Program-made: the position numbers and the translations under genes
DNA from: a virus
Length of the DNA: 42,584 bases
Reading direction: 5' to 3' (one strand)
IMG/VR virus record: IMGVR_UViG_3300029787_000007
Span: 1-42,584 of that record
In this document: in pieces, positions 1 through 22,414 of the stretch
How positions within the stretch are numbered: position 1 is the stretch's first letter
How the letters are laid out: the number at the start of each line of letters is the position of its first letter
Notes under the pieces: generated by a model
Told to the model about the DNA's origin: nothing
Databases searched by the model: none
Seen by the model: only the letters and a program-made list of their open reading frames with translations

Positions 1-2
1 AG

Positions 3-931: not shown

Positions 932-954
932 TACAGGGTAGCCAGGAGTTTACT

Positions 955-2229: not shown

Positions 2230-2237
2230 GGATAGAC

Positions 2238-2531
2238 ATGAAGTATTATATCAGCAAAACACACATCGACGTAGACGCCTCTGGGCGGCTCTCAGGCTAC
2301 GAGACGGTGCTCACCCGTCCCGACACGCTCAAAGCCGCTACAGAGGCTCTCAGGCGCTATAAAGCCATAGGAATCACGTCCATCCACCTGTGCGAGCATC
2401 CCAAGAACTCGCGGAGGTACGGTAAACTTGATCGAGAGGCAGGCAGGCGCCGAGGTAAGGCGCGAAAGCTGACCCTTGCCGATGTCGCTGCGGATCTCGC
2501 AGAGCTTGAGAAAGAGAGTGACAAATCGTGA
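2238..2531 (+). CDS. Hypothetical protein, 97 aa
   Basis: The protein starts MKYYISKTHIDVDASGRLSGYE. It has a beta-rich first half and a basic second half (KNSRRYGKL...RRRGKARKL) that ends in an acidic helix. The ATG lies nine bases after the stop of the VWA gene, so the two are likely one transcript. No family is recognised. Its TGA stop lies inside a GTGACA repeat. Confidence 0.65.
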   Translation: MKYYISKTHIDVDASGRLSGYETVLTRPDTLKAATEALRRYKAIGITSIHLCEHPKNSRRYGKLDREAGRRRGKARKLTLADVAADLAELEKESDKS

Positions 2532-2571
2532 CATCTTTTCTATTGATCTTTGCTCTCGCATCGTGTATACT
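2518..2571 (+). promoter_or_regulatory. Sigma70-type promoter with tandem GTGACA repeats
   Basis: The repeat GTGACAAATCGTGACA (2518-2533) has two GTGACA copies ten bases apart. A -35 TTGATC (2543-2548), a 17-base spacer and a -10 TATACT (2566-2571) follow. The repeat, the 9-base gap and the promoter are arranged exactly as at 3909-3962. It should drive the gene at 2596. Confidence 0.8.
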
Positions 2572-2595
2572 TCTCAAGTAACTCGGAGGTTATCT

Positions 2596-3426
2596 ATGGC
2601 TCGCTCTACTTATGGAACCCGTCTTGAGGCGCTGATCGCGAACCCCGCGATCTCACAGCGCGACAAGGCATTCGCTGAATCCTTGCACAGCTTCTACACG
2701 TCCAAGCGTCGGTTGACCGCTGGGCGTGCTCGCTGCGTTAAGCAGCTTGAGGACCGCTACAGCCCCGAGAAGCTCGCCGCAGCTATGGAGAAGGGTGCGG
2801 CTATGCTGGAGCGGCTCAATGCCGTCTGCGAGCGTACAGAGCCCAAGTCTTGGGGTCGCGGGTTCATCAACTCCCTCCAGGGTCAGATCATGGCTGGACG
2901 CGAGTTGTCCGAGAAGCAGATCAAGACCCTGGAGAAGATCGAGGCTGAGAACAGCGACGAGGCGATCAAGGCTCGCGACACGTGGAAGCTCGACTATCGC
3001 TATGGCACTGCTGCCGCTTGGGGCACCACACCCGCTAAAGTTGCCGAGATCGCCGCTCGCTACTACAAGGCTGCGGGCTACTTCCAGCGTCTTGTTAACT
3101 CCATCCTGAACGATGACGGTTTTGTGCCGACCATCGAGCAGTATAATAAGATCACAAAGAACAAGTTTGCGGTCAAGGTCTTGACGGCGCACTTCGCTGA
3201 TCCCAAGTTCGCCCCTGGCTCGCTTGTCCAGTTCGGTGCGACTGCTCCGAGCGCCCTGCGCCGGATCAAGGTGCCCTGCGTTGTGATCACGTCCAACGGT
3301 GGGCCGATCGTCAGCGCAGCGAAGGGCGCGAAAGTTTACAGCGTGCTGCCGATGGGTAGCGCGAAAACCCTGCTCTGCGAGGAGCGACATCTCAAGAAGG
3401 CCCGAAAGGTCGGAGGTAAGAAATGA
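2596..3426 (+). CDS. Helical-repeat protein with C-terminal barrel-like domain
   Basis: This 276-residue protein has two related helical hairpins near its N-terminus. The first runs from FAESLHSFY to KQLEDRY, the second from FINSLQGQ to LEKIEAE. Each has an aromatic-SL helix, an LT/LS turn and a Q/K-LE helix. A basic, aromatic middle follows, and then a C-terminal beta-rich segment (APGSLVQFG...PCVVITSNGGPIV...VYSVLPMG...KTLLCEERHL) that resembles an SH3-like barrel. The start at 2596 follows GGAGGT at 2585-2590; an extension upstream would run through the promoter. Function is not recognised, and nucleic-acid binding is only a guess. Confidence 0.75.
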   Translation: MARSTYGTRLEALIANPAISQRDKAFAESLHSFYTSKRRLTAGRARCVKQLEDRYSPEKLAAAMEKGAAMLERLNAVCERTEPKSWGRGFINSLQGQIMAGRELSEKQIKTLEKIEAENSDEAIKARDTWKLDYRYGTAAAWGTTPAKVAEIAARYYKAAGYFQRLVNSILNDDGFVPTIEQYNKITKNKFAVKVLTAHFADPKFAPGSLVQFGATAPSALRRIKVPCVVITSNGGPIVSAAKGAKVYSVLPMGSAKTLLCEERHLKKARKVGGKK

Positions 3427-3605
3427 TGACCCAGCAACCCGAAACACGCCCAGACACCGCTATGGAGGTCGCACAGGCCAATGCGGAGGTTATGATCGCA
3501 CAACTGGCTACGTGGGCACAGATCAAGAGCGGAACCACCGAGCAGGCGACTGAGGATCTTATGCTCGTCGTCCTGGCTGGCATGAACATTCCAGCGGAGG
3601 CATAG
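3423..3605 (+). CDS. Hypothetical helical protein, 60 aa
   Basis: The ATG overlaps the upstream stop (ATGA), which indicates coupling. The protein is mostly one or two amphipathic helices (AMEVAQANAEVMIAQLATW, then EQATEDLMLVVLAGMNI) with an acidic bias. No motif was recognised. It is one base away from the SWIM protein gene and so is likely part of the same operon. Confidence 0.6.
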   Translation: MMTQQPETRPDTAMEVAQANAEVMIAQLATWAQIKSGTTEQATEDLMLVVLAGMNIPAEA

Positions 3606-3606
3606 A

Positions 3607-3912
3607 ATGGTCGTAATGGTCCCGCCTGCACTTGCTAACTTGCCCAGTGGTCGCTATGCGGTTTCTGGGTCTACTTGGATCCGTGTGCCCGATGATACGA
3701 AGTTTGAGGATCTGGACAAGTATATGACCTATGAGCGTAAACGTCCTGAGAGCCCGTCTGCTGGCTCTGAGCGCGTCTGGGCTGTCGTGGGTAGTAAAGG
3801 CGCACACTACACGGTGAGAGCCAACCAGGGGCGTTATACTTGCACGTGTCCCGGTTTCGGCTGGCGTCACAAGTGTAAGCACATCGAGCAGGTTAAGAAA
3901 GAAAACCCGTGA
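3607..3912 (+). CDS. SWIM zinc-finger protein
   Basis: The 101-residue protein ends with CTCPGFGWRHKCKHI, the CxC...CxH pattern of SWIM zinc fingers. The preceding YTVRANQGRYT strand pair is typical of the domain. SWIM domains bind DNA or proteins and are often found near Swi2/Snf2 helicases or MULE transposases, but neither is seen here. The N-terminal ~50 residues have no recognised domain. Its TGA stop falls within the GTGACA repeat of the next promoter. Confidence 0.8.
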   Translation: MVVMVPPALANLPSGRYAVSGSTWIRVPDDTKFEDLDKYMTYERKRPESPSAGSERVWAVVGSKGAHYTVRANQGRYTCTCPGFGWRHKCKHIEQVKKENP

Positions 3913-3962
3913 CAAATCGTGACAAGATTTCGCTTGCGTTAAACTTGCGCCTGTTGTATAAT
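3909..3962 (+). promoter_or_regulatory. Sigma70-type promoter with tandem GTGACA repeats
   Basis: GTGACAAATCGTGACA (3909-3924) is identical to 2518-2533. It is followed nine bases later by -35 TTGCGT (3934-3939), 17 bases of spacer and a consensus -10 TATAAT (3957-3962). It lies upstream of the gene at 3988. Confidence 0.8.
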
Positions 3963-3987
3963 GGGTGAGTATCAAGGAGGTACATCT

Positions 3988-4173
3988 ATGCTCGATCTGA
4001 ATCCATCCACCGACTCCTCCGCGCTTATCGCGCAGGGGCTCCGCGCTTCCGAGCGTGATCTTCTCAGCGCCGACCGCACCGATGCGGTTAGCGCATCCTT
4101 GCGCGATCTTCGCGCTGTCGCTGCCGTGCTCGCCACGGCACATCTTCGTTCCCTTATCGCCCAGGAGGGCTAA
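3988..4173 (+). CDS. Hypothetical helical protein, 61 aa
   Basis: A strong AAGGAGG ribosome site (3975-3981) precedes the ATG at 3988; an earlier ATG at 3961 overlaps the -10 box and is rejected. The protein is Ala/Leu/Ser/Arg-rich and helical (LIAQGLRASERDLLS, VSASLRDLRAVAAVLA). No family is recognised. It is the first gene after a strong promoter, so it may be well expressed. Confidence 0.65.
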   Translation: MLDLNPSTDSSALIAQGLRASERDLLSADRTDAVSASLRDLRAVAAVLATAHLRSLIAQEG

Positions 4174-4176
4174 ACC

Positions 4177-4395
4177 ATGAGAGACATTTCTACCCCCATC
4201 CTTCACGCCGACGCCTGTAACATGTTTGAGTTTGAGATCCTGCCTGGGATCAAGGAAGTCTATGAGCAGGACGGAGAACCCGATTGGCCTGCGCGTTCCG
4301 AGGCTTGGAACAACTGGACCGATTCACTTTGTAAGGACGGTCAGATTTCTGACTGGCAATATGACAACTGGAGTCAGCCGCGTTGTTGCGGTTGA
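4177..4395 (+). CDS. Hypothetical acidic protein, 72 aa
   Basis: The protein is rich in Trp, Asp and Glu (PDWPARSEAWNNWTDSL, ISDWQYDNWSQP) and ends with a Cys-Cys-Gly tail. It begins three bases after the preceding stop. No domain was recognised. The aromatic and acidic composition suggests a small protein-binding or inhibitor-like protein, but nothing in the sequence shows a partner. Confidence 0.6.
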   Translation: MRDISTPILHADACNMFEFEILPGIKEVYEQDGEPDWPARSEAWNNWTDSLCKDGQISDWQYDNWSQPRCCG

Positions 4396-4426
4396 TCCGA
4401 GATTACATCTACAGGAGATATATATT

Positions 4427-4963
4427 ATGAATGTTGAAACTTTGAAAGACTTCCGCTTGACAGAACAAGAGTGGCACACCCTTATGCACTGTGGCGAGTT
4501 CCACGGCGATCCTGCCGTCGTGGATGTCCTTGTGCTCGCTGGGCTTGCCTTCTGGGAGGATGAAGGATCCCGTAGTGAGGGAGACTGGGATCTGACCGAT
4601 GAAGGCCGCGCTGCGTGTGATGCGATTGACCTGATCTTTGATTGGGATGAGTTCGTTTTCGCAGAAAGCTCTGAGAGCCCTTCTGACGGCGATGAGACTG
4701 TCTTCCTTAACGGTGAGCCTATCAAGCGCAGCGAAGCCCTCAAGATGGAGTCTGAGCGCCCTAAGCCGCTCTCTGTCGGCTCTCTCGTGCGTCACATCCC
4801 AACCGGTGGCGTCGGGCTCATCACGAAGCATACGATGTATGATGCGAACTGGGGCGGGTTCTATGTGGACTTCGTTAAGCCTGTTGATAACATTATCAAT
4901 GGGCGCGCCGTCAACAAGTTAAGCCACATGTTCGACCGTGGCGATAAGTTTGAGAGGGTATAA
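4427..4963 (+). CDS. Hypothetical protein with C-terminal SH3-like domain
   Basis: The ATG follows AGGAG at 4413-4417. The N-terminal ~75 residues look like a small winged-helix-type fold (LTEQEWHTLMHCG, VVDVLVLAGLAFWEDE, WDLTDEGRAACDAI), where 'LTDEGRAA' is a common C-terminal element of phage winged-helix proteins. An acidic Ser-rich linker follows. The last ~60 residues repeat the SH3-like pattern of the small barrel family (VGSLVRHIPTGGVGLITKH, GFYVDFVKPV). It may be a DNA-binding adaptor. The domain assignment is from pattern only. Confidence 0.65.
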   Translation: MNVETLKDFRLTEQEWHTLMHCGEFHGDPAVVDVLVLAGLAFWEDEGSRSEGDWDLTDEGRAACDAIDLIFDWDEFVFAESSESPSDGDETVFLNGEPIKRSEALKMESERPKPLSVGSLVRHIPTGGVGLITKHTMYDANWGGFYVDFVKPVDNIINGRAVNKLSHMFDRGDKFERV

Positions 4964-4967
4964 AGAA

Positions 4968-5072
4968 ATGGATAAGAGAGTTAAGTATATCGTTATCGCG
5001 ATGGATGTACTATGTTGGACTACGCTGGGTTTGCTGGCTGTCCATCATTTCAACTGTCCATTGACGTTTTGA
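4968..5072 (+). CDS. Tiny membrane peptide, 34 aa
   Basis: The ATG lies five bases after the preceding stop. The peptide MDKRVKYIVIAMDVLCWTTL... has a basic N-terminus and one hydrophobic segment (IVIAMDVLCWTTLGLLAV), as expected for a single membrane helix. The stop overlaps the ATG of the next tiny gene (TGATG). No family is recognised; it could belong to a lysis or membrane-modifying set. Confidence 0.45.
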   Translation: MDKRVKYIVIAMDVLCWTTLGLLAVHHFNCPLTF

Positions 5073-6452: not shown

Positions 6453-6713
6453 ATGAAGATAACAAAACAATATGTAAAAGAGCTTATCCTTGAAGAGCTA
6501 ACCAAGTCCGATATTAAGGATATTGTCGATGCGGCCATTGAAAAGCAACTCAAGAAAGAACTTCCAGGCGTCCTTAAGAAAGAGTTAGAAAAGGCTTTAA
6601 AGTCAAAAGAGATTAAATCAGACGTTGGGGAAGTCGCCAAAAGCGTTATTAAAAAGTTGTATAAAGATTTATCATTTCACCACCCATATATCATCGACAG
6701 AATCAAGGTGTAA
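6453..6713 (+). CDS. Coiled-coil protein with capsid-targeting-like N-terminus
   Basis: The 86-residue protein begins MKITKQYVKELILEE. An I-x-E at residues 12-14 lies in the same register as the MKLL...FLxE tags further on. The rest is a charged amphipathic helix (IEKQLKKELPGVLKKELEKALKS). N-termini like MKITK...IxEEL are familiar from marine phage proteins. It may be a short internal-head or scaffold-like protein; that role is inferred. Confidence 0.6.
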   Translation: MKITKQYVKELILEELTKSDIKDIVDAAIEKQLKKELPGVLKKELEKALKSKEIKSDVGEVAKSVIKKLYKDLSFHHPYIIDRIKV

Positions 6714-8619: not shown

Positions 8620-9345
8620 ATGAAAAAATTATTAGCGTTATTATTAAGTCTTTCCGTGTCAACTACAGCAATTGCTGATACGGGTAGTGATTTTCAAACA
8701 ATTTCGATTGAGAACGGCTTAGATCGAAACGAAAGACGAGTTAGAGACTCGGCTGTTAAAATTGCAGATGGATATGGTCACGGTTCGGGAGGAATAGTAC
8801 AGTACTATGACATGCAACTTGTTATAACAGCACAGCATGTTGCAGACGGAAGAATTGGAAGCAATTATTACGTTATTAATGGTGCCACTATGGAACAAGC
8901 TATTTTAGTTTATGCTGACCCCGTGCATGATATTGCTGTGTTATATCTTAGAGAAGGAAATCAACTTGAAGGAAGAGGTCTACGCTACTCTCCAACATCT
9001 AACATGTCTGCAATTGGCACTGGAATAACTTATTCTGGACACCCTTCATGGCACAGTTTGATGACATATAGAGGTCATATTGCCGGAATGGAACATATTG
9101 ATGGTCGAGGTCCACAGCTTATGTTAAACACGTATGGTTGGTTTGGGTGTAGTGGGTCTGTTATTTACGACACAAGTGGCGACATTATTGGTATACTATG
9201 GGGAGTTGATGTTGAACAACGTCCAGATCTTCAAGTTCAAGAAAATATGATTTGGGTATCTCCTATTCAAAATTTAGATATGTCTCTTGCTATTAGCGAA
9301 TTATGTATTGCTCTTGAACAAGAACCTCGCGCATGTAGAAAATGA
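8620..9345 (+). CDS. Secreted trypsin-like serine protease
   Basis: AAGGAG at 8607-8612 precedes the ATG. The protein has a clear signal peptide (MKKLLALLLSLSVSTTAIA) with a likely cut after AIA or nearby. The S1 triad is visible: His in TAQHVADG, Asp in DPVHDIAVL and Ser in GCSGSVIYD. At 241 residues it is a minimal chymotrypsin-fold domain without PDZ. It should act in the host periplasm or outside the cell. A phage-encoded secreted protease is uncommon; roles could include degrading host surface proteins or helping lysis. Its stop overlaps the ATG of the Nudix gene (ATGA). Confidence 0.85.
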   Translation: MKKLLALLLSLSVSTTAIADTGSDFQTISIENGLDRNERRVRDSAVKIADGYGHGSGGIVQYYDMQLVITAQHVADGRIGSNYYVINGATMEQAILVYADPVHDIAVLYLREGNQLEGRGLRYSPTSNMSAIGTGITYSGHPSWHSLMTYRGHIAGMEHIDGRGPQLMLNTYGWFGCSGSVIYDTSGDIIGILWGVDVEQRPDLQVQENMIWVSPIQNLDMSLAISELCIALEQEPRACRK

Positions 9346-9806
9346 ATAAATGGAAGCAGTTTCTCACCGAAGGTGAGTTGAAAACAGTTGGAATTGTTGC
9401 CTGTCTTAATGATAAGCAACAATTTCTTGTTATTAAGCGCTCTGATGTTGATGATCGTGCTGGCCAATGGACAATGCCGGGGGGTCATATAGACGATGAG
9501 GACTTATCAATAGAAGCCGGCGCAGCTAGGGAACTTAAAGAAGAAGCCGGCTTAATTTGTAAAATTTCTGATTTGATGTATCTTGGGGTTCCCAAACCAG
9601 ATAAATACATGTTTATGACCCAAAAATGGACTGGTGACGTAAATGTAAATAAACCAAATCCAAAAACAGGCGAGGTAGAGCATGATGCCTATAAATGGCT
9701 TACAATCGAAGAGGTAAAAGACCTAGACAATAGCAAAATTCCGATCTATTTATTGGAGAAAGCTTTAAAATTAGCAGGATTTGATAAAAATGGAAGATCT
9801 TTATGA
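9342..9806 (+). CDS. Nudix hydrolase with capsid-targeting-like N-terminus
   Basis: The Nudix box is clear around residues 47-71 (GGHIDDED...REL KEEAGL), with the catalytic REUxEExGU at 63-71. The domain is complete for the family (154 aa). Before it lies MNKWKQFLTE: an aromatic at 4, Phe7 and L-T-E at 8-10. This has the same spacing as the T4 internal-protein leader MKTYQEFIAE, where gp21 cuts after Glu10. The enzyme may therefore be packaged in the head and delivered to the host. The substrate (NUDP, NAD, dinucleotide or RNA cap) cannot be told. Confidence 0.85.
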   Translation: MNKWKQFLTEGELKTVGIVACLNDKQQFLVIKRSDVDDRAGQWTMPGGHIDDEDLSIEAGAARELKEEAGLICKISDLMYLGVPKPDKYMFMTQKWTGDVNVNKPNPKTGEVEHDAYKWLTIEEVKDLDNSKIPIYLLEKALKLAGFDKNGRSL

Positions 9807-11043
9807 AGAAATATCTGAAAGCTTAAGAGACTGGTTTAAAAAATCTAAGTCAAAAGGTGGAAAACCGGGCTGGGTTCAAGTAGTTTCTGGAAAACCATGC
9901 GCGAGACAGCCAGGACAGAAGACTACACCTAAGTGTGTATCGTCCGCAAAACGGGCTAGCATGTCTAAAAAAGAACGCGAATCAGCACAACGAAGAAAAA
10001 GAGCGGCAGACCCTGGTCAGCCAAAAAAATCAGGTGCCGCAAAACCAACATATGTCTCAACTGACAAGAAAAAAAAGAAAAAATCAAAGAAAAATGAGGA
10101 TTTGTATATGAGTTTAGATAAAATTATTGCTGAAGAGCTTGAAGCAGTGCTTGATGAGAAGAAAAAACGCAAGAAAAAGAAGAAAAAGAAGTCCGGTAAA
10201 AAGGACGCGTGCTATCACAAGGTAAAATCTCGCTATAAAGTGTGGCCGAGCGCGTATGCTTCTGGTGCTTTAGTTAAATGCCGCAAAGTTGGCGCTAAAA
10301 ATTGGGGCAATTCTAAAAAAGAACATATTCAAATTATGATTGAAGATGAATTAATACAAGTTTTAGCAGAAAGAAAACAAAAGCGCGGAGGAAAAAAATG
10401 TTGGGACGGATATGTGAGAAACTATGATGTTCCAAAAGGCGCTCCAGGTTCTTGCAAGAAAAAAGGCAAAAAAAGAATTAAAGAAGAAGAAGAAAAATCT
10501 GATTTAAAATCCAAAGTAATCAAAGCTTTGCGTGATGAAGGCGGCGCAGCTGGTATGGACGCTTTGAAAAAGCACACAGAAGCTTCAAAAGAAGAAATTG
10601 ATAAGGTTGTTGCTTCAGCTGATAACATAAAAGTGCACGAAGACGGCGATATTATTTTAATGGATAGCCTCGAAGAGCAGTTAATACTTAAGAAACTTGA
10701 AAATTTTTTAGAAGAAGCATTATATTACGGATTAATTGATGAAGAAGAGGAACAAGAACTTTATGAAGGCAAAAAGAAAAAAGCGTGCAAACCCTCTAAG
10801 GGTAAAAAATTCGCCAGAAGAGTAAAAGGGAGATGTGTTTCTTATGGTCAAGCGGGTAAAGCTAAAGGCGGTGGGCCAAGAATAAAACCAGGAACGGGAA
10901 AAGGCAATGCATATTGTGCTAGATCTTACGGAGACATGAAATCTCATGGAAAAGATTGTTCTGGAAAGGACAGAGGAACCCCTTTGTGTCTTTCTCGTCA
11001 AAAATGGAAGTGTTCTGGTAAGTATAGTCGCAAAGGAAAATAA
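9790..11043 (+). CDS. Basic, Cys-containing polyprotein-like protein with repeated L/I-x-E sites
   Basis: The 417-residue protein begins MEDLYEEISE, with I-S-E at 8-10 in the T4 capsid-targeting register. Very basic modules alternate with short acidic helices. The modules include a Gly/Cys segment at 20-55, a KKDACYHK...KNWG segment at 135-172 and KKCWDGYVRNYD...CKKK at 200-227. A winged-helix-like segment is at 238-290, and a Cys-rich tail at 327-417 ends KWKCSGKYSRKGK. L/I-x-E sites sit at the helix ends (IAE 113-115, LDE 121-123, LAE 192-194, LEE 307-309, LYE 324-326). I infer that the prohead protease cuts it into DNA-binding internal peptides. The ATG at 9790 was preferred over TTG 9781; it overlaps the Nudix gene. 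Confidence 0.75.
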   Translation: MEDLYEEISESLRDWFKKSKSKGGKPGWVQVVSGKPCARQPGQKTTPKCVSSAKRASMSKKERESAQRRKRAADPGQPKKSGAAKPTYVSTDKKKKKKSKKNEDLYMSLDKIIAEELEAVLDEKKKRKKKKKKKSGKKDACYHKVKSRYKVWPSAYASGALVKCRKVGAKNWGNSKKEHIQIMIEDELIQVLAERKQKRGGKKCWDGYVRNYDVPKGAPGSCKKKGKKRIKEEEEKSDLKSKVIKALRDEGGAAGMDALKKHTEASKEEIDKVVASADNIKVHEDGDIILMDSLEEQLILKKLENFLEEALYYGLIDEEEEQELYEGKKKKACKPSKGKKFARRVKGRCVSYGQAGKAKGGGPRIKPGTGKGNAYCARSYGDMKSHGKDCSGKDRGTPLCLSRQKWKCSGKYSRKGK

Positions 11044-11046
11044 ATT

Positions 11047-11511
11047 ATGAAGCTGTTAATTGAGAGTTGGCGCAAGTTTTTATCCGAAGACATTAAAATT
11101 GTTGCAAAAAAAGTAAAAAATTTAGTTTGCCCGCCTGCAACACAAGATTTAAAACTTAATACTAAAAATCGAGATTCTGCAATTCAAGCAGAGCATATTC
11201 AATACGGACCCATGAATCTTGAAGATGAGGAATATTGGGTTCGTGCCGCTAAACATTGGAAAACTGAACCTGAAGTTGCTAAAAAATCTCGTTGTGGCAA
11301 CTGTGCGGCGTTTGATATTTCTCCAAGAATGAAAGAATGCATGCCTGGAGAAACTTCTGACGATGATGGCGAGCTTGGATACTGTTGGATGCATCATTTT
11401 AAGTGTCATTCCGCAAGAGCATGTTATACTTGGGCCGCTGGTGGCCCTATTTCTGATGATTCAGTGTCTGCTGATTGGCAAGAGCGTTCAAATATCGACA
11501 AGGAAGAGTAA
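11047..11511 (+). CDS. Cys-rich protein with capsid-targeting-like N-terminus
   Basis: The protein begins MKLLIESWRKFLSE, with L-S-E at 12-14, followed by a basic stretch. The second half has RCGNCAAFD, MKEC, YCWMHHFKC and SARACYTWAAGG: six or more Cys in a metal- or Fe-S-type pattern. The spacing recalls HiPIP-like folds (CxxC...C...C with aromatics), but this is weak. It starts three bases after the polyprotein stop. If the leader is cut by a prohead protease, the mature protein would start near Asp15. Confidence 0.7.
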   Translation: MKLLIESWRKFLSEDIKIVAKKVKNLVCPPATQDLKLNTKNRDSAIQAEHIQYGPMNLEDEEYWVRAAKHWKTEPEVAKKSRCGNCAAFDISPRMKECMPGETSDDDGELGYCWMHHFKCHSARACYTWAAGGPISDDSVSADWQERSNIDKEE

Positions 11512-11514
11512 TTT

Positions 11515-14106
11515 ATGCTGACTGACGAGCAAATTTTATTAAAAGCGACACTTTTGCTTGAAAAAATCTCAGAAAATTCTGATTTAACGACTGAAGTGTT
11601 GCTTCGAGAAATTTCTGACTCCGAAATGAAGGGTGTTGAAGCAATTTTACAAAAACTTGCGGATAATCCAAGAGGATCTTTAGCTTTTGACAACCTTTTT
11701 GGCGACAAAACACGTCTTGTAATACCATTTCCAGTAAAAGATAGAAATTCTGAGCTTGGACAGTGGGTTTATATGCTTGAGCAAGTGCTAAAAGTCGACG
11801 TTGATTGGGAAAGAGGCATGGTTTCCGTTGAAAGAGAGTGGGAAGACCACGACAAAACTGTTGATGATACAGTAAATCAAATATTTGGAGATGGGCCCCC
11901 GTCCAAAAAGCTAAAAAAGAAGCTCCAAATGAAAATTGGCAAGTATTTTGTTAAATTAGACAGTCTTATGAAGGAATATTTGCAAATAAGAAAGAAAATT
12001 GGCGATCATAAGTATAAAGATAGACCTGATGAAGGTCCAGGCGCTATTGGAGGCAAACATTTGCTTAAATATACCATTGGAGATACTGAAGATGCACTAA
12101 ATGACGAAGAACTTAAAAGATATAACCAAGTTCTAAACCAATTAGAGCTATATGCTGGCAATACCTCTCACGGGCACTTACAATCGTTTGCTATGGATTA
12201 TTCTGATCAAGATCAATGGAAGCAAAAAGAACAACACCGTAGAGATCAGCAAGATGCAGGTGACAGGCGCTACGGAAAACCAGTACGCACAAGAAAACCG
12301 ATAGTGGTGCCTGACACAAAGTTTATTGACATGGGCACTTACTGGTTAAATAACTCAAAAACAATTAGAGAAGACGTTCCGGGTCTTGAAAATGATACAT
12401 ATTCTATTATTTTGACTCGACACCCTGTTGATGTTATGCGTATGTCTGATTTTGAAATGATTACGTCATGTCATACACCTCCAAGCCGCGATGGCTCAAA
12501 ACAAGAGTACTATAAATGTGCTGTTGCCGAAGCACAAGGGCACGGAGCAATTGCTTATGTGGTAGAAACTGAGGATTTGCTCTCGGAAACAAACACAGGC
12601 AACATAGAAAGCGCCGAACAAGAACTTGAAGAGTATGATGAAATTTTCACTGAGCAAAACCGCTGGATGAGCGGCACTAATCTTAATTTAGATCCAGTTT
12701 CCCGAACAAGATTAAGACAGTTTAAGTTTTTTGATTGGGAAAAGTATGACGCTGGAGAAGATCAAGGCACAGAAGTAGCAGTTCCTGAAAAATATGTATA
12801 TGGAATCAAAATTCCTGGACTTGTCGGTACTGTAACAAAATGGGCAAGACAAAAACAAGAAGAGGTTATTACTAATTTACCTAAATCTGATGGCAAAGTT
12901 GATTTAGATGATTTTAGAATTTATGGAGGCTCTTACGAAGACACAGCGCATTATGGAGGTCGTAAAGAATTATTAGCAAACCTTACAAATATCTCAATGA
13001 GCGATTTTACTGGACAAGTTGAACAAGATAAAGAAACAGAAGAAGAAATGCCGCCTGAGTGGGTTGGCGATGTTGAAGAAATGCTTAAGCGTGATTGCGC
13101 CAAAGTTAGAGAAAAATGGAATTCTGGAAAGTACGCTAATTGCGAGGTAGACTTTCACGTTAGAGATGATTCAGGCGAAGGCGATTATGTTATTTACCCA
13201 GAAGGCAAAATAATGCTTACTTGGGAGCTTGATGAATGGAAACAGCTTCCAAACGTGTCCGAAGGTAGGCTTATTGCAGATTATTTAAACGAACAATATT
13301 ACAACCAAGACATGGGCGCTATTGTTCCGCTATTTGAAGAAGATAAAGGAGCAATCTATAGAGGCGGCCCAGAAGATAATGAAGTTATTATTTGGCGTTG
13401 TGAGTTTAACACCAGATTTGTTCCTGGACTGGAAAACCAACCTGTAGTCTATGACGCTGACGGCTATGAGAATTATTGTAAAGGCGTTGATGCGCTGGAT
13501 GATGACCGAGATAAATTTCAAGCGCTTGTAGAACAATACGCCAAAGAAAATGGTTATTTTGAAGGGCACGCTTATATGAGCTTGGTTCAAAAACTTGAGA
13601 ATGGTTTAAACGATGATACTTATGAGTGGGATGTTGAATGGGACGGAGAACACTATACTGACTCTTACGAAGCGTGGGCTTCTATTTCTTATGATTTTGA
13701 TCCAGAACAATTAGGTATTGAAACAAGAATTTTGTTTGATCTCGTTGATCGACGAGAGTTTGCGCTTCGTCTTAGGGGATACTTAACTGCGCAGGCTAGA
13801 GAAGAAACAGGCGGCGAATATTGGCTCTCTATTCGCAATAGAAGCGCGGTAGATTCCGGGGGTGACGTTCGCTATAGTATAACTTTTAAAGTAGACGCAG
13901 ACACCCCTGACAAGCTTGTAGAGCAATTTTATGAATTAGTCACTGGCGACATGGATGACGAGGACGAAATTGCTGCAGCATTTATGGGTGCTTTACGAGA
14001 AGAAGCAGCAAAAAATAACATTAATGTTGGGCAACCTCCTGCTGAAAAACAACGCAACTTTGATGATCTTAAAGATCTCGGAGAAGTATGGAAAAGATTT
14101 ATATGA
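11515..14106 (+). CDS. Large acidic phage protein of unknown function, 863 aa
   Basis: This is the longest protein in the window and belongs to the coupled tag-bearing operon. A helical N-terminus (ILLKATLLLEKISEN) has L-L-E and I-S-E sites but lacks the MKLL leader. Residues about 60-190 are mixed and about 210-260 are highly charged (DQWKQKEQHRRDQQ). A conserved-looking core reads ILTRHPVDVMRMSDFEM, SCHTPPSRDG and AVAEAQGHGAIAYVVE. The C-terminal half is acidic and Trp/Tyr-rich (YEWDVEWDGEHYTDSYEAW). I do not recognise a known enzyme; the HP...SCH...GHG residues could form an active site. Its stop overlaps the next ATG (ATGA). Confidence 0.7.
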   Translation: MLTDEQILLKATLLLEKISENSDLTTEVLLREISDSEMKGVEAILQKLADNPRGSLAFDNLFGDKTRLVIPFPVKDRNSELGQWVYMLEQVLKVDVDWERGMVSVEREWEDHDKTVDDTVNQIFGDGPPSKKLKKKLQMKIGKYFVKLDSLMKEYLQIRKKIGDHKYKDRPDEGPGAIGGKHLLKYTIGDTEDALNDEELKRYNQVLNQLELYAGNTSHGHLQSFAMDYSDQDQWKQKEQHRRDQQDAGDRRYGKPVRTRKPIVVPDTKFIDMGTYWLNNSKTIREDVPGLENDTYSIILTRHPVDVMRMSDFEMITSCHTPPSRDGSKQEYYKCAVAEAQGHGAIAYVVETEDLLSETNTGNIESAEQELEEYDEIFTEQNRWMSGTNLNLDPVSRTRLRQFKFFDWEKYDAGEDQGTEVAVPEKYVYGIKIPGLVGTVTKWARQKQEEVITNLPKSDGKVDLDDFRIYGGSYEDTAHYGGRKELLANLTNISMSDFTGQVEQDKETEEEMPPEWVGDVEEMLKRDCAKVREKWNSGKYANCEVDFHVRDDSGEGDYVIYPEGKIMLTWELDEWKQLPNVSEGRLIADYLNEQYYNQDMGAIVPLFEEDKGAIYRGGPEDNEVIIWRCEFNTRFVPGLENQPVVYDADGYENYCKGVDALDDDRDKFQALVEQYAKENGYFEGHAYMSLVQKLENGLNDDTYEWDVEWDGEHYTDSYEAWASISYDFDPEQLGIETRILFDLVDRREFALRLRGYLTAQAREETGGEYWLSIRNRSAVDSGGDVRYSITFKVDADTPDKLVEQFYELVTGDMDDEDEIAAAFMGALREEAAKNNINVGQPPAEKQRNFDDLKDLGEVWKRFI

Positions 14107-14795
14107 AACTCTTAATGGAAAATTGGCGGAAGTATTTGAATGAAGAAGAAGTCGCGGATGTTGATCAAGAAGACAGATATCTTTTTTATGAATGGCTTAC
14201 TAATGAAATAAAAAATGAGCCTTTTAAAAATTGGATAAAAATTCATCAAGAAAGAGCAAAATATGTAGCCCCAAGATTTGGAATTTACGATAGTAGCGGC
14301 CGGGCTACATATCTTTATCCTAAAAAAATAGAAAAACCTAGTGATGCTTGTTCTTTTAGTTTGTATAATATAGACGGCGCAGAACTATATGCAATGAGAC
14401 AATACATCGAAACAGGATCGGACGTCTGGGATAGAGATAAAGCAAATAAAGCATATCATGAAGCAAACGAATTATTAGAAAAATTTAAAAATTCCTACAA
14501 AAAAATTAAAATGCATCTTAATGAAATAAAACTTAAATTTCCATATGACTTATTTTGGGAATTTGATTGTCAAGAAAAAATGAAACGTTTAGACTTTCTT
14601 GTAAACAAAACAATTGAATGTCCTTATCCTCCAGACTACTCGATGACTGTTTCTGAAGTATTGTCAACAAAAAATTTAAAAGGTGCACCAACACCTTATG
14701 AAAAATGTGTTATAGAGTTTAAAATGCGGGACGATGCTGAGGCAGAAGTAGAGACGGTCGGTGGAGAATTTGATTTACAAGAGTACAAAACATGA
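14103..14795 (+). CDS. Protein with capsid-targeting-like N-terminus, 230 aa
   Basis: MKLLMENWRKYLNE gives L-N-E at 12-14. At DNA level this start is also close to that of the gene at 14792, so the leader seems to have been copied. The rest is alpha-helical and charged (KANKAYHEANELLEKFKNSYKKIK) with no recognised domain. Two FDCQEK/IECPYPP cysteines are present but no metal pattern. It overlaps both neighbours by ATGA. Confidence 0.7.
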   Translation: MKLLMENWRKYLNEEEVADVDQEDRYLFYEWLTNEIKNEPFKNWIKIHQERAKYVAPRFGIYDSSGRATYLYPKKIEKPSDACSFSLYNIDGAELYAMRQYIETGSDVWDRDKANKAYHEANELLEKFKNSYKKIKMHLNEIKLKFPYDLFWEFDCQEKMKRLDFLVNKTIECPYPPDYSMTVSEVLSTKNLKGAPTPYEKCVIEFKMRDDAEAEVETVGGEFDLQEYKT

Positions 14796-16576
14796 AACTT
14801 TTATTAGAGAATTGGCGGAAGTTTTTAGCTGAAATTGAAGAACCTGAAAAGTTTTGGGGCTCCATAGCGGCTGGCATCTTACCAATTGCCCAATCAACAG
14901 GCAGAGTTTTAATTAATTTACGAAGTCCATGGGTTATGCAACCCTTGACCTGGGGTGTGATTGGCGGCAAACTTGATGACAACGAAGGAGCAAATATAGA
15001 AAATGCAGCAAAAAGAGAATTTGAAGAGGAAACTGGTATAAAATTTACGGGCTCTCTTATACCAATATATAAGTTTCAATCTGCCGAGGGTAATTTTACA
15101 TATCAAAATTATATTGGGCTTGTAAAGAAGGAATTTACGCCAAAAAAAAATTGGGAATCAGCGGATTTCAAATGGATTTCGTTTGATCAGATAGAGGAGT
15201 TAGCGCCAAAGCATTTTGGTTTAGAAGCTTTATTGGCTGATTCTGCAAGTGTAGAAAAAATTGGAGAAGAAATAAAAAAAATTGAAGAAACAATAAAGCT
15301 TAAAACTAAGGCTGCGCCCGATCCGCAATTAAAACTTCCTCTTGGGCAGGCAGATTATCCCAAACAAGCAATGGCCACCGCATTGCAGCAAGATCCAGAA
15401 TATCAAAAGCGTCAAAAGGCTTATTCTGATAGAACAAAAAAGGAAGCTGAAGGAGATCCAATAATCAATAAGTGTGATAATTTTACCAAATTCAAATGTA
15501 TGGATTTGGACGATTTTGTATATCATGAACAAGCTTGTAAAGGTTCGGATTTTAAGGGCTTTAGAAGCGAACAACAGCGCGCGCAAGAGATACAAGATGA
15601 ATTATCAGATATACAAATTAAAGAAGCGTGCGAGGCTTATAAATTTTGCTTTAGCGAATTTAAGAGGCTAATGAATGCCGAAGACATAAATGTACAAGAT
15701 ATAGAAAGTGCGCATGATCTATATAATGACATACCTCTTGGAGATGATTGGGAAATAATTGCAGAGCGCCATGAACAAGATTGCTTGGAGTATCGGAATC
15801 AACAGTACGATCTTCAACGAAACCCCGACTACCTAGAAATGAAAGAGAAAGAAGAATATTTGCGCATACATAAACAAGGAAAAATTTTAAAAAATCAATT
15901 TACTAAATATGCCGATCGTCAGTTTTTAGATTCCTTAGTAACAACTCATACAGCTAACCGCGAACAAGTTATAAAATTATTATCTGTGGCAGCAAAACAA
16001 AATAATTTAATACGTGATGAAATCAATGCTACGGCAACATTGCCAGGAAATTGGTCTGAAACAGCTTGGTTCCAAGGTTCGCCTGATAAATGGGGGGTAA
16101 TTCTTAAAGGAGATATAAATTTATTAGTAAAAGATATGGATGAAATTAGAACAGGATATTATGAAAAATACAAAAAACATCTTCCTAAAGATGCGTTTGA
16201 AGGAGGCTTTAGAAAAGGTTTAATTAATTTACCAAAACCAGGATCTGTTATGTATGATGATGTTTTCATTCTTGATGCAGGAGATTGGTCCAAAGTGAGT
16301 TCAAAAGAATATGCTCCTACTTCTAAATTTTATGATGACCCATTACGACAAAATGAAGCTTTAGTATCAAACTTTAAAATACTGGCGATTATTGATTTGA
16401 TGCCCATCAGAAGCCGGGAGTCTTGGTACCAGTCTGAGAAAGGGCGAGAAGCAGAAAGACAACGTATGGCTAATAAACAAAAGGATTTAAAAACATTAGA
16501 AAGCTTGTCAGCAAAATTAAATATTCCAATTTTATCTAAAGATCAAGCTGTAAAATTATTGAGAGATAAAAAGTGA
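14792..16576 (+). CDS. Nudix-domain fusion protein with capsid-targeting-like N-terminus
   Basis: The leader MKLLLENWRKFLAE has L-A-E at 12-14. A Nudix domain follows (about residues 22-150) with GGKLDDNEG...REFEEETGI as the catalytic box at 58-83. A helical, charged linker spans about 160-400. The C-terminal ~180 residues form a separate alpha/beta domain (TAWFQGSPDKWGVILKGD, RTGYYEKY, DDVFILDAGDW, DPLRQNEALVSNFKILAIIDL). I do not recognise this domain. The 'RQNEALV' strand recalls the glutamate region of ADP-ribosyltransferase-like folds, but this is weak. At 594 aa it is far longer than a normal Nudix enzyme. T4 packages the ADP-ribosyltransferase Alt in the same way. Confidence 0.75.
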   Translation: MKLLLENWRKFLAEIEEPEKFWGSIAAGILPIAQSTGRVLINLRSPWVMQPLTWGVIGGKLDDNEGANIENAAKREFEEETGIKFTGSLIPIYKFQSAEGNFTYQNYIGLVKKEFTPKKNWESADFKWISFDQIEELAPKHFGLEALLADSASVEKIGEEIKKIEETIKLKTKAAPDPQLKLPLGQADYPKQAMATALQQDPEYQKRQKAYSDRTKKEAEGDPIINKCDNFTKFKCMDLDDFVYHEQACKGSDFKGFRSEQQRAQEIQDELSDIQIKEACEAYKFCFSEFKRLMNAEDINVQDIESAHDLYNDIPLGDDWEIIAERHEQDCLEYRNQQYDLQRNPDYLEMKEKEEYLRIHKQGKILKNQFTKYADRQFLDSLVTTHTANREQVIKLLSVAAKQNNLIRDEINATATLPGNWSETAWFQGSPDKWGVILKGDINLLVKDMDEIRTGYYEKYKKHLPKDAFEGGFRKGLINLPKPGSVMYDDVFILDAGDWSKVSSKEYAPTSKFYDDPLRQNEALVSNFKILAIIDLMPIRSRESWYQSEKGREAERQRMANKQKDLKTLESLSAKLNIPILSKDQAVKLLRDKK

Positions 16577-17166
16577 AGCTCTTAATGAAAAATTGGCATA
16601 ATTTTTTATTACTAGAAAATTTAAATAATTTTACTAAGCTGTCTATTTTTGATTTTGATGAAACAATTGCATTTTCAGATACAATTACAAATGTAATAGA
16701 TAAAAATACTGGTGAAAGCTTTCAGGCTACTACCCAAGAAGAATTAGATAAATTAGGCCTAGAACCTGATAAGTATGAGTTTGATTTTTCTCCTTTAGAT
16801 GTTGTTACTAACGCTGTTGAAAATATATCTGTAACAAAAATATTAAGAAAAAGAATAGCCAATCCAAATACAAGCACATTAGTTTTAACTGCAAGAAAAA
16901 AGATTGCGGAAGATGATATACACCGTGTTTTGAATTCTTTTAACATCACCACAGACGATCTTTATATTGTTGGATTAGATGGTCAGAATAAAGGCGAATA
17001 TGTTTTAAAACAAATAATACAAAAATACCCAAATATTAAAGAAATTGAATTTTATGATGATTCTTTAAACAATATTATTGCTATGCAAATGACAAAAGAA
17101 ATTGCAGAGCTAGAAAAATTTCACATTTATCATGTTGAACATGGAAAACCAAAACTAATTAAGTAA
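16573..17166 (+). CDS. HAD-family phosphatase with tag-like N-terminus (GTG start)
   Basis: GTG at 16573 overlaps the previous stop (GTGA) and yields MKLLMKNWHNFLLLE, a variant of the operon's leader with L-L-E shifted by one residue (13-15). The HAD motifs are clear: DFDET at 27-31 (catalytic DxD), LTARK (motif II) and FYDDS (late acidic motif). At 197 aa with a small cap it resembles phage or bacterial HAD acid-phosphatase or polynucleotide-phosphatase-like proteins. The substrate is unknown. It ends the tightest run of tag-bearing genes. Confidence 0.8.
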   Translation: MKLLMKNWHNFLLLENLNNFTKLSIFDFDETIAFSDTITNVIDKNTGESFQATTQEELDKLGLEPDKYEFDFSPLDVVTNAVENISVTKILRKRIANPNTSTLVLTARKKIAEDDIHRVLNSFNITTDDLYIVGLDGQNKGEYVLKQIIQKYPNIKEIEFYDDSLNNIIAMQMTKEIAELEKFHIYHVEHGKPKLIK

Positions 17167-18469: not shown

Positions 18470-18807
18470 TGTCATTTATAGACCATATTGCCATACTTGT
18501 GGATGATCTAGAGGTTGCGGAGGACTGGTATACTGAAAAATTAGATGGAAAGGTAACTTTTCGTGACTCAAAATATATTAGAATGAGTGTTTCTAACACA
18601 AATATTGCTTTAATTGATAAAAAACACTATCCGTATGCGCATTTTGGTATTTTAGTTAAAAAAATCGAAGATTTACCGTTAGAATTAGGAGAAGTTGTTT
18701 ATCATCGCGATGGAACAACTGGAGTTTATGTAAAAGACCCATTTGGTAACTATTTAGAGTATATTTGGTATTCGGATGATCAAAAAAAGGTATTTTTAGA
18801 TGATTGA
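18466..18807 (+). CDS. VOC (glyoxalase/bleomycin-resistance) family protein
   Basis: This 113-residue protein has both halves of a VOC domain. The first is FIDHIAILVDDLEVAEDWYTEKL and the second is HFGILVKKIEDL ... GVYVKDPFGNYLEYIW. The metal-ligand positions (His in DHIAIL, His in AHFGILV, Glu in YLEYIW) are kept. Substrates in this family vary widely, and the phage role is unknown. It lies in the cargo-type operon and overlaps both neighbours. Confidence 0.8.
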   Translation: MMSFIDHIAILVDDLEVAEDWYTEKLDGKVTFRDSKYIRMSVSNTNIALIDKKHYPYAHFGILVKKIEDLPLELGEVVYHRDGTTGVYVKDPFGNYLEYIWYSDDQKKVFLDD

Positions 18808-20026
18808 CGTTTTAAAGTCTTTAATTAAGCAATTTATGCCGTTTGCGCAGCAACAAATGGGGTTCGAACGCCCTCCAAAGCTGTTTTTACGTCAAGATGA
18901 ACAAAATGCAGCAAATCCTATGGGAAAAACAGGCTTTTATGACCCTGAAAATGAGTCTGTTACTCTATATATAACTGGCCGACACCCAAAAGATATTATG
19001 CGCTCTTTGGCTCATGAGCTTATGCATCACACTCAAAAATGCAACGGAGAGTTTGAAAATACCAAAAATATGGGCGAAGAAGGCTATGCGCAAGCGGATC
19101 CACACATGCGAACAATGGAAATTCAAGCATATCAAGCATCTATTGTGTTTAGAGATTGGGAAGACAGTACAAAAGGTACTATTTACTACGAACATTTACA
19201 AAAAGGAGATAAAAGTTCAATGTCTACAAAAGATTGGAAAAATGGGGAATTAAAAAGTCTCCTTTCAGAAGCATGGGGTTTCAAAATGGATCTCAGCAAA
19301 TTAAATAATGAAAAAACACATAAAAAAGTTTTAAACGAAAATAAAGATGAGATTTTTGCACCTAACCATTATTGTGTTCATCATGGTGGGGTTCATTATA
19401 ATGGTTCTATTCATATGGCCGAGGCTGTAAAACATAATTATAATGAAGAGCTTGGGCGCGTAACACACTATGATATGAAGTTGTCTGACGGAACTATTCT
19501 CGAAAACGTTGCTGCTGAAAATATTCAAGTTACAAATGCTAGTTTAGCTGAAAGTCATGGCGGGGATATGCCTGGAAAACGCGATGATAAAAAGAAAAAG
19601 AAGAAAGTGAAAGGCAAATATGATGATGGAGATGGAAAAGACGAGAAATGTGATCATGTTCCTTGTAAAGGTCAAGAAGATACAAAAGGTCAAGGAGAAA
19701 CATTAGAAGAAATGGGTTGCCCATCAGACGATCACGGTGGCGAAGATTCTACAGTTATGACGGTTGTTGATGGCGATAAAGTTGGAGTAACAGATGCTGA
19801 AGACGCGGGTGGTATGGCAAATGAGCTTTTAGCTTTAGCTCAAAAAATTGCTGATATGCTTGGTCAAGGATCTTCTGACGAAGAGGGGCCTGATCTTGAA
19901 GAACGTAGAGCAAGAGGCAGAGATCGTGAGGGTATGGAGCCTGATTCTCGTAGGCGACCTATGAAAGAGGCCGAGCTTCGCGAAATGGTCAAGAAAATGA
20001 TTAAAGAAAAAATTAAAAGGAACTAA
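18800..20026 (+). CDS. Zinc metallopeptidase-domain protein with internal L-S-E site
   Basis: HELMHH at residues 72-77 is an HExxH zinc motif, and a downstream Glu (MEIQAYQAS) could be the third ligand. This domain covers about residues 20-125. After it, LKSLLSE at 151-157 resembles the tags at the starts of neighbouring genes. A prohead protease could therefore release the N-terminal peptidase from a C-terminal part. That part contains a basic segment (DDKKKKKKVKGK), several His/Cys (KCDHVPCKGQ) and a helical MIKEKIKRN end. At 408 aa it is much larger than a minimal peptidase. Confidence 0.75.
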   Translation: MIDVLKSLIKQFMPFAQQQMGFERPPKLFLRQDEQNAANPMGKTGFYDPENESVTLYITGRHPKDIMRSLAHELMHHTQKCNGEFENTKNMGEEGYAQADPHMRTMEIQAYQASIVFRDWEDSTKGTIYYEHLQKGDKSSMSTKDWKNGELKSLLSEAWGFKMDLSKLNNEKTHKKVLNENKDEIFAPNHYCVHHGGVHYNGSIHMAEAVKHNYNEELGRVTHYDMKLSDGTILENVAAENIQVTNASLAESHGGDMPGKRDDKKKKKKVKGKYDDGDGKDEKCDHVPCKGQEDTKGQGETLEEMGCPSDDHGGEDSTVMTVVDGDKVGVTDAEDAGGMANELLALAQKIADMLGQGSSDEEGPDLEERRARGRDREGMEPDSRRRPMKEAELREMVKKMIKEKIKRN

Positions 20027-20029
20027 ATC

Positions 20030-22414
20030 ATGGGCGGATCCGGCGGACACATGCGCCATCCACATGATTTGGATGAAGTACAGACCGGCAAAGATATAAT
20101 AGCCCTTTTTAGGGCTATTCCTGCGTATCTACGCTCAGAAGAATTTAAAAGCGGTCAAACTACTAGTTTAAAATTAGACGGCAGTAATAACGCCATTAAA
20201 GTCGTTGAAGACGAAGACGGCGGTTTTCAATTTGCTATTGATCGAGGTGGTAAAGGAACATCTCCCGAAACACAACTTGATGTTATGGGTGTTACCATTG
20301 ATAGGCTGAAAGATCGTTTTACAAAAGTTAATAAACGAACTGGAGAAACAAAATATAATGAGGGCTTGGCAAACTCTTCTGCTGGATTGATTAATATGAT
20401 GACTAACGCATATGATCAAAATGAAGAGATCATGTTTGGCCTTCTACAACAACTTGGTTTAATTGATGAAAATGGAGTCCCAGATCCTACAAAATTTATA
20501 AATATTGAATATATTGATCGTCTACCAAAAGATATAGATCCTGAAACTGGAATGGGAAGAGCAAACGCAATTTATTATGCTTTTGACTCTATAACTTTTT
20601 TAAATATTAGTCAATATTATGAAGTTACTGCTATGGTTTCTAGAAAAGATCCGGTAACTGGAAAAAGTTTAAAGGCGCCCAACGGAAAAGTTTTGAGAGA
20701 TTTAAAACAAACCAGACCAGGAATAGAAAGACCAAGGATTAAAACACTGAATGATGCCGGCGAAGAAATTGAAAAAATTTCAGGAGACGTAAGCACATCA
20801 ATTAATTTTGATAAAACCGCTTTAGATGAACTGGCCCAATTGGTTGAACCTTACGCTCCTAAAAGCAAATCTGGTCAACAATTTAAAATTTTAGGTCCAG
20901 GAGACTTGGGTTTAAGCGTGGATCACGATGCCGCAGAAGGTGAAGATTTAGATGTAGCTATCGAAAGAGCTGTTAATCAATTACAGCAAAATATCGACAA
21001 TACCTTAAATAGTGATCTTACATTTGTAATTAGCGATCAGTTAACCGTTACAAAAAAACTTGAAGAGTGGTTATCTATGGCTATTAATTTTCCATATAAG
21101 CCTGACATTACCTTAGTTGATGGCAGTAAAAAAGGACCGTTTACAAAAGAACTTCATAATCAATTAGTGGATTTACAAACTCCATTGGCCGAACTAGTTC
21201 CGCTTGGTGAAGATTTACAGTGTGAATTTGATGGTACCTTAACAGACTGTGAGAAAGCAATTTATGGAGCAGTTTTTTATGAAGCAGCTAGAAGATTAGG
21301 CAATGTTGTTAAACAGTCTTTACAATCAAAAGTAGAAAAATTTGGAAGCGCTGTTGATCATGAGGGAGTTGTTATAAATGCAGGAATGCCGTTTGGAGAT
21401 AAGGTAACTGGCAATACATTTAAATTAACAGGCGAATTTATTGTTGATGGAAATCAAGGTGTTTATGCTATACGAGAACAAGTTGAAGATGAAAACGAAG
21501 ATCCAGTAATTGATATAGAATTTGAAGATGAGCCTGTGCGTGAACCTGAATTACCAGAAGAAGAGCCTGTAGAAATTTCTCCTCAAACAATTGCTATTGT
21601 ACCGGGTGCTTATAAGCCTCCTCACAAAGGACATTTAGATATGGTTATTAAATATCTTACTGGCGAAGGTCTTAATGTTCCAAAGGCTGACGAAGTTTAT
21701 GTTATAATCTCAAAACCAACTAAAAAAGGACGGTATTTGCCTGATGGAACTGAAGTTGGAGTTGCCGAATCTAAACAATTATGGTATCAACTTATTGGTG
21801 GAATGCCGCGGGTTAAAATTATTTCTTCTGAAGAGCATGCATCTCCTATAAATGCTGGCTATGAAATGGTTGGGGAAAATACGCAAATTCCTGCAGGTAC
21901 AAATATTATATTAGGCGCCAGCAAAAAGGGAGGTGACTGGCGAAGATGGTCAGGAGCAAACAAGTATGTTTCTGATACTTTAAATTTAATCGATCCTGAA
22001 TTGTCTGCTGTTGAACCAAAAGAACATGATGATGGTTATATTGAAGCTCTTTTAAGAGATGAAAATCAAGATTTATACAAAGGGCTACCCAGCGTTCAAA
22101 AAAACAAAAATCCAAATGAATATCATGCATCTGATTTTCGATATATGATCGGCGAAGCGGCTAATAACCCTGTTGCTATGCAATTGCTTGAATCTTTTAT
22201 AGGTGAAGGCAATGTAAAAACTTTACTTTCAACTTTTAATATACCTACTAGTATTGAAGAAGTGTCGGCTATGGCTGCGGGCGCTGTTGCAATAGGCTCT
22301 AATCGCCTACCTAATAAAAAACGTAAAAAGAAAAGAAAACAAAAAGAAAATATTGATATTAGTTTGGTTGATGATGTTATGAGACTAATTATGGAAAGAG
22401 GCATCTTACAATGA
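20030..22414 (+). CDS. Ligase-like and HxGH nucleotidyltransferase fusion, 794 aa
   Basis: The N-terminal domain has SLKLDGSNNAIK, a K-x-D-G motif at 48-51 as in motif I of ATP/NAD-dependent ligases and capping enzymes, followed by FAIDRGGKGT. The C-terminal domain (from about 520) has VPGAYKPPHKGH, with HKGH at 532-535. It continues with VIISKP and a late GASKKGGDWRRW segment, fitting the cytidylyl/adenylyltransferase (HxGH) superfamily, such as NMN adenylyltransferases. The middle and the extreme C-terminus (KKRKKKRKQKENI, MRLIMERGILQ) are unassigned. Which nucleotide or end it acts on is unknown. The KxDG assignment needs structure support. Confidence 0.7.
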   Translation: MGGSGGHMRHPHDLDEVQTGKDIIALFRAIPAYLRSEEFKSGQTTSLKLDGSNNAIKVVEDEDGGFQFAIDRGGKGTSPETQLDVMGVTIDRLKDRFTKVNKRTGETKYNEGLANSSAGLINMMTNAYDQNEEIMFGLLQQLGLIDENGVPDPTKFINIEYIDRLPKDIDPETGMGRANAIYYAFDSITFLNISQYYEVTAMVSRKDPVTGKSLKAPNGKVLRDLKQTRPGIERPRIKTLNDAGEEIEKISGDVSTSINFDKTALDELAQLVEPYAPKSKSGQQFKILGPGDLGLSVDHDAAEGEDLDVAIERAVNQLQQNIDNTLNSDLTFVISDQLTVTKKLEEWLSMAINFPYKPDITLVDGSKKGPFTKELHNQLVDLQTPLAELVPLGEDLQCEFDGTLTDCEKAIYGAVFYEAARRLGNVVKQSLQSKVEKFGSAVDHEGVVINAGMPFGDKVTGNTFKLTGEFIVDGNQGVYAIREQVEDENEDPVIDIEFEDEPVREPELPEEEPVEISPQTIAIVPGAYKPPHKGHLDMVIKYLTGEGLNVPKADEVYVIISKPTKKGRYLPDGTEVGVAESKQLWYQLIGGMPRVKIISSEEHASPINAGYEMVGENTQIPAGTNIILGASKKGGDWRRWSGANKYVSDTLNLIDPELSAVEPKEHDDGYIEALLRDENQDLYKGLPSVQKNKNPNEYHASDFRYMIGEAANNPVAMQLLESFIGEGNVKTLLSTFNIPTSIEEVSAMAAGAVAIGSNRLPNKKRKKKRKQKENIDISLVDDVMRLIMERGILQ

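Follow-up and report, generated by a model that had tools for sequence, protein, structure and literature searches.

We re-analyze a 42,584-nt stretch of DNA from an uncultured virus, a large tailed phage related to T4 (IMG/VR record IMGVR_UViG_3300029787_000007; hereafter "the window"), part of an incomplete 112.7-kb parent contig, G000. A block at 9.3-17.2 kb of the window is very probably a cassette of capsid cargo. We observe that proteins with diverse bodies begin with similar short leaders, that conservation drops sharply at the leader boundary, and that the leader is associated with head genes and with a prohead protease encoded on the same contig; we infer that the tagged proteins are packaged, cleaved and delivered as cargo. 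An earlier sequence-only reading of this DNA had reached the same interpretation, which our analysis supports. Capsid cargo of the T4 type is already known; new are a leader that is widespread, a C-terminal variant and a second leader class.

Through a 10-residue tag, T4 is known to inject a handful of proteins, few of which have an established role. If our reading is true, the at least 82 clusters of tagged proteins described below would make capsid cargo predictable purely from sequence. The tag would then single out immediate-early enzymes (Nudix, HAD, kinases, zeta-toxin-like, acetyltransferase, 2H-like) that would act ahead of any phage gene expression and that annotation does not otherwise reveal. 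The known targeting rules would be extended too, by the C-terminal tag and by the second leader class.

A shared leader on unrelated proteins

Six leaders had been proposed, at 9342, 9790, 11047, 14103, 14792 and 16573, and all are present at those positions. Five of these open reading frames (ORFs) start with an amphipathic leader ending in W-x-x-[FY]-[LI]-x-E or a one-residue variant of it, and the sixth (9790) has a related 10-residue form; the leader is predicted, at low confidence, to be an amphipathic helix. The long form, usually 14 residues, has the consensus MKLLxENWRKYLxE (for example MKLLLENWRKYLNE). As a DNA pattern it matches the window three times (11047, 14103, 14792), versus no match in 100 dinucleotide shuffles. 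The leader at 16573 (MKLLMKNWHNFLLLE) begins with GTG and is longer by one residue ahead of the Glu, a variant that recurs in HAD orthologues (NWRNYVLLE, NWRNFVIFE). The short leader of 9342 is not significant alone as a DNA motif (0.39 chance matches expected); its W-x-x-[FY]-[LI]-x-E core is retained in most orthologues, three of which (L033, L079, L126) have the long-type form. Orthologues of 9790 mostly begin M-x-D-L-Y-G-x-[LI]-x-E, with [LI]-x-E at residues 8-10, and that in L018 begins MKHLLESWQEYINE. No T4 late-promoter motifs (TATAAATA) were found 5′ of the leader genes.

A degenerate IMG/VR scan for the leader covered 120 stretches, and its totals are lower bounds. It returned at least 162 leader ORFs, at least 152 of them distinct; with the window's five added, at least 157 leader proteins fall into at least 82 body clusters (clustering at E < 1e-3), so that the leader is common to unrelated mature parts. 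The bodies include AAA, protein kinase, zeta-toxin-like, GNAT, M23, EF-hand, Nudix, HAD, nucleotidase and nucleotidyltransferase types, plus many unknowns. All 162 listed leaders are true N-termini, with a median of 5 in-frame codons to the upstream stop and none above 60. The leader was found in none of the control loci or genomes, and a partial literature search turned up no mention of leader strings. No isolate phage was matched by tblastn with concatenated leaders, short queries of this kind having little power.

As part of the leader conservation is forced by the search pattern, the informative residues are those chosen where the pattern left options. Among the 152 distinct proteins listed, position 6 is E in every one, although D, K and N were permitted; position 14 is E in 150 and D in 2, both permitted. 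Where the pattern was open, Leu is preferred over Phe at 3 and 12 and Arg over Ser at 9. Conservation falls from 3.48 bits at Glu14 to 0.47 at residue 15.

Comparison with the T4 capsid-targeting sequence

The T4 internal proteins IPII and IPIII begin MKTYQEFIAE, and Y4/F7/I8/E10 align one for one with W8/(F/Y)11/L12/E14 of the leader. The alignment with T4 that the sequence-only reading had called for thus places the four conserved residues on T4's genetically mapped capsid-targeting residues: in IPIII, residues 4 and 7 direct targeting and residues 8 and 10 processing, and IPIII with Asp10 enters the prohead with its cleavage blocked (PMC9026906). Exact T4 spacing had been claimed for both 9342 and 9790. 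It holds for 9342; for 9790 it is only partly right, since Ile8 and Glu10 are kept and T4's Tyr4 and Phe7 are missing.

The T4 capsid-targeting sequence (CTS; on IPI, IPII, IPIII and Alt; Mullaney and Black 1996, reviewed in PMC9026906 and PMC5694885) is, like the leader, a short N-terminal peptide on differing proteins. Both have the form aromatic-x-x-aromatic-[LI]-x-E with equal spacing, in viruses that encode their own gp21-family protease. They differ in length (10 residues in T4 and usually 14 here, with 9342 at T4 length), and no BLAST-level relation is seen between them. Unlike the CTS, the leader stands on at least 82 body clusters with many enzyme folds, and it has a C-terminal copy lacking the Glu and a second class beside it. 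In the giant phages SPN3US and phiKZ, a gp21-family protease similarly removes N-terminal propeptides of internal head/ejection proteins after Glu; these propeptides, however, are mostly longer than 100 residues and share no short tag (PMC5694885). The internal Dar proteins of phage P1, which travel in the head and are ejected to counter host defence (PMC9024508, PMC12810830), are likened here as an analogy only.

Prohead protease and head genes

The capsid-cargo proposal called for a prohead protease in the genome, and an S77 (gp21-family) protease is encoded on the same contig, 90 kb downstream (G000:106449-106910; E 4.9e-30, and E 2e-53 to the PHROG head maturation protease). It retains the His and Ser motifs of T4 gp21, GELDHP aligning with GELxHP and GISSRGMGS with SSRG, and terminase and portal genes lie 5′ of it. 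Its N-terminus (KKLLREYYELC...DLLTE) holds LxE sites, as does T4 gp21 (LIE-9). Of the leader contigs that reach 139 kb or more, all 11 have both S77 and Gp23; among control contigs, selected with a neutral pattern, S77 is present in 1 of 3 at that length and in 2 of 49 overall. In the leader viruses, the propeptide of the major capsid protein (MCP) ends in LLRE or LLKE ahead of the shell domain; LLxKW occurs in T4 gp23 and in these MCPs, and LQEKW in S-SM1.

The gene order in T4 is 20-67-68-21-22-23. A leader-type N-terminus is found on the gene after gp21 in 5 contigs (L006, which comes from G000 itself, L025, L031, L130 and L132), in the forms MDAWRQFLSE, MKLIMENWRKFLSE, MDAWRSYLKE, DAWKGFLAE and DSWKNYLVE. 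A gene before gp21 is leader-tagged too in L031 and L130. On the other side, 4 other contigs are without that gene after gp21. The motif thus marks genes flanking gp21, which are the slots of the T4 core proteins.

Several observations weigh against a capsid-cargo cassette. The control is small, with a Fisher p of 0.033 at ≥ 139 kb and 0.30 at ≥ 100 kb, and S77 was seen in only 15 of 39 leader contigs of at least 60 kb, a low share that is likely, if not provably, due to fragmentation. Gp23 was not found on the incomplete contig G000. Beyond the spaced core, no sequence-level homology of the leader to the T4 CTS is seen, at the little power that such short queries have. Injection, and virion presence in leader-bearing viruses, would follow by analogy with T4. 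At the end of G000, a repetitive ORF of at least 1041 aa (L005:13576-16698, G000 109575-112697) runs past the contig end, so that no Gp23 gene is visible.

The tagged proteins might instead be prohead core or scaffold components that function in assembly or remain within the head, rather than delivered enzymes. This we regard as improbable. The leaders on gp21-flanking genes, in the slots of T4 gp67/68 and gp22, would suit it, and some tagged bodies match "minor head protein"; however, many of the bodies are enzymes whose motifs are intact and for which a structural role is not obvious, and the cassette varies among related viruses, unlike core assembly genes.

If the block is a capsid-cargo cassette, each tagged protein would be synthesized with an amphipathic helix of 10-15 residues at its N-terminus, with the core W-x-x-[FY]-[LI]-x-E, whose aromatic/hydrophobic face would dock on the prohead core during head assembly, as T4 and the same motif on gp21-flanking genes suggest. 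The virus's own gp21-type S77 protease would cut after the Glu, the mature enzyme would stay in the head, and, judging from the T4 internal proteins and Alt, the head enzymes would enter the host together with the DNA. An 863-aa protein of the cassette would carry its docking motif at the C-terminus, without the Glu. More speculatively, the cargo (Nudix, HAD, an Fe-S-like Cys protein, a basic polyprotein) may act immediately on the nucleotides of the host, on nucleic acid or on first-line defences. The tag itself would move between bodies as a small DNA module.

Spread of the leader at the DNA level

The leaders had been described as alike even at the DNA level, and three long ones are indeed identical at 31-34 of 42 positions. 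Among the window's long leaders, 16 of 27 differences fall at third codon positions. Identical residues have a codon identity of 0.72 within contigs and 0.57 between them, against codon-usage expectations of 0.49 and 0.42, and most leader positions use several synonymous codons, with all six in use at L12 and R9. With this excess codon likeness alongside third-position differences, spread at the DNA level can be seen as well as constraint on the protein, and the codon data fit the spread of a module combined with selection on the peptide. Spread by duplication, as had been suggested, is borne out in part, by a DNA likeness above the codon-usage expectation. A further argument, from orphan leaders as proof of tandem duplication, was dropped: these come to four short ORFs, of which locus ends truncate two, and what look like remnants upstream in L029 and L030 make more sense as the C-terminal motif of the gene before.

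Codon identity above expectation, within and between contigs, would also be expected of a conserved DNA or RNA element (for translation initiation or regulation, or a recombination hot spot) whose peptide has no role. This explanation is very improbable, given the several synonymous codons at most positions, the share of third-position differences, and a peptide core that recurs at C-termini and, at another length, in 9342. We give just as little credence to a helix, such as the amphipathic one predicted at low confidence, that targets the proteins elsewhere in infection (membrane, replication site) and ends in LxE by coincidence, against which stand the near-invariant Glu14 with its abrupt loss of conservation, the co-occurrence with S77 and Gp23, the leaders beside gp21 and the match to T4 CTS genetics.

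A second leader class and a C-terminal motif

A second leader, MKITKxQLKQIIKEE, is found on at least 154 distinct ORFs in viral contigs. This class, missed by the sequence-only reading, is linked to head genes and S77: among the matches listed, S77 is present in 11 of 16 large contigs with the second leader, and G000 has about ten such proteins (at least 9 besides that at 6453), mostly near head genes (G000 90409-106300). The slot before gp21 on G000 holds one of them (MKITKQLLQEMVEEELKILVE). In a looser set (n = 292), I12 and E14 are still conserved, E14 without being forced, which again places [I]-x-E at 12-14. The window member is a small protein at 6453-6713 (+ strand) with the leader MKITKQYVKELILEELTK. 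Separately, a 408-aa putative metalloprotease (HELMHH) at 18800-20026 of the window has a C-terminus that resembles the second leader (MKEAELREMVKKMIKEKIKRN).

The 863-aa protein (11515-14106, + strand) has no recognised domain and no N-terminal W-leader. It ends in the leader core DLGEVWKRFI-stop (14074-14103), without the terminal Glu, and through this C-terminal motif, overlooked before, it belongs to the tagged set. Trp859 is invariant in 21 aligned homologues, and the homologue in L102 has an N-terminal leader (MQNFNNIWKNFLTE) plus the C-terminal motif. A C-terminal W-[RKH]-x-[FY]-[LIVM] is found in the 863-aa protein's cluster of 29 homologous sequences (for example NENLVKTWKGFLNS), with one match in control loci. 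Since both ends of T4 Alt undergo processing (PMC9026906), a C-terminal address is plausible. A predicted fold of the protein is of moderate quality (pLDDT 76), with strong BFVD matches that are all nameless and no match in the PDB at E ≤ 0.001.

Taken further, the W-class, MKITKxQLKQIIKEE and C-terminal W-[RK]-x-F-L tags may be interchangeable parts of a general prohead address code, sharing the scaffold site of the MCP propeptide (LLxKW/LQEKW), by which dozens of enzymes would be loaded and injected as a modular arsenal. This is a tentative proposal, and we lean somewhat against it.

Members of the probable cassette

The remaining tagged genes are all on the + strand. The bodies had been said to include two Nudix domains and a HAD phosphatase, and profile searches agree, with the HAD just under the Pfam cut-off; the Nudix RExxEExG and HAD DFDET motifs are intact. 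The first gene (9342-9806) encodes a Nudix hydrolase (Pfam NUDIX, E 4e-20) with the short leader MNKWKQFLTE (9342-9371) followed by G. The second Nudix domain (E 1.6e-12), with about 450 aa of further body, is encoded at 14792-16576 behind the leader MKLLLENWRKFLAE (14792-14833), followed by I; a homologue 89% identical to it in L074 retains the leader. Between them, at 14103-14795, lies a gene for a 230-aa protein recognised by its match to the leader pattern (MKLLMENWRKYLNE, 14103-14144, then E), for which no confident Pfam or PHROG match was found.

The HAD-fold phosphatase (16573-17166; HAD_SAK_1, E 5.8e-5) has its GTG-started leader at 16573-16617, followed by N, and DFDET at residues 27-31; tagged HADs form a 14-member cluster. 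The orthologues in L054 and L123 have an additional basic segment separating the leader from the HAD domain, and an [LI]-x-E-type site still stands directly before the domain (NALLE then N, ENVLSE then N).

The gene at 9790-11043 encodes a basic Cys-rich protein (PHROG_727, E 3e-61) with the leader MEDLYEEISE (9790-9819) followed by S. It has internal acidic helical linkers ending in LDE, LAE and LYE, each before K/R-rich stretches. These linkers and the junction sites of the HAD orthologues suggest that 9790 may be a polyprotein of basic peptides, and would fit polyproteins cut by the same protease. Its first domain is T4-GC119, present in 358 T4-like cyanophage records, 3 of which annotate it as "structural protein". 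The main text of the S-SM1 virion paper (PMC3037559) does not place T4-GC119 in the virion.

A further Cys-rich protein (11047-11511) has the leader MKLLIESWRKFLSE (11047-11088) followed by D. Its 11 viral-contig homologues mostly have the leader, that in L106 being without it, and the leaders of orthologues also diverge (MKVIFENFRRFVNEA). Homologues in phage records are annotated "high potential iron-sulfur protein", and that in OQ999401 (L391 3656-4390) lies directly 5′ of two genes called capsid maturation protease. An AlphaFold2 model of the 11047 protein was too poor (pLDDT 45) and was discarded.

Genomic surroundings

Nearby sequence gave no megablast match in isolate phages, and tblastn with the HAD was also without a match. 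Downstream of the cassette, a 794-aa protein (20030-22414) has a KxDG ligase-like motif near its N-terminus and, towards the C-terminus, a nucleotidyltransferase-like segment (PGAYKPPHKGH); it adjoins the cassette in relatives too, and no homology to isolate phages was found for its C-terminal part. ARAGORN calls a tmRNA at 24026-24362, with the tag ANNNTHFEAARLAA. The GC content steps from about 0.55 in positions 1-5000 of the window to about 0.38 beyond roughly 5 kb. DNA at about 5.0-6.0 kb is poorly coding, and the step may be a chimeric join or a recent acquisition. From position 35118 of the window to about 50400 of G000 runs a series of ORFs that, read from sequence, resemble glycosyltransferases, methyltransferases and nucleotide-sugar epimerases/dehydrogenases, which suggests a surface-glycan cluster.

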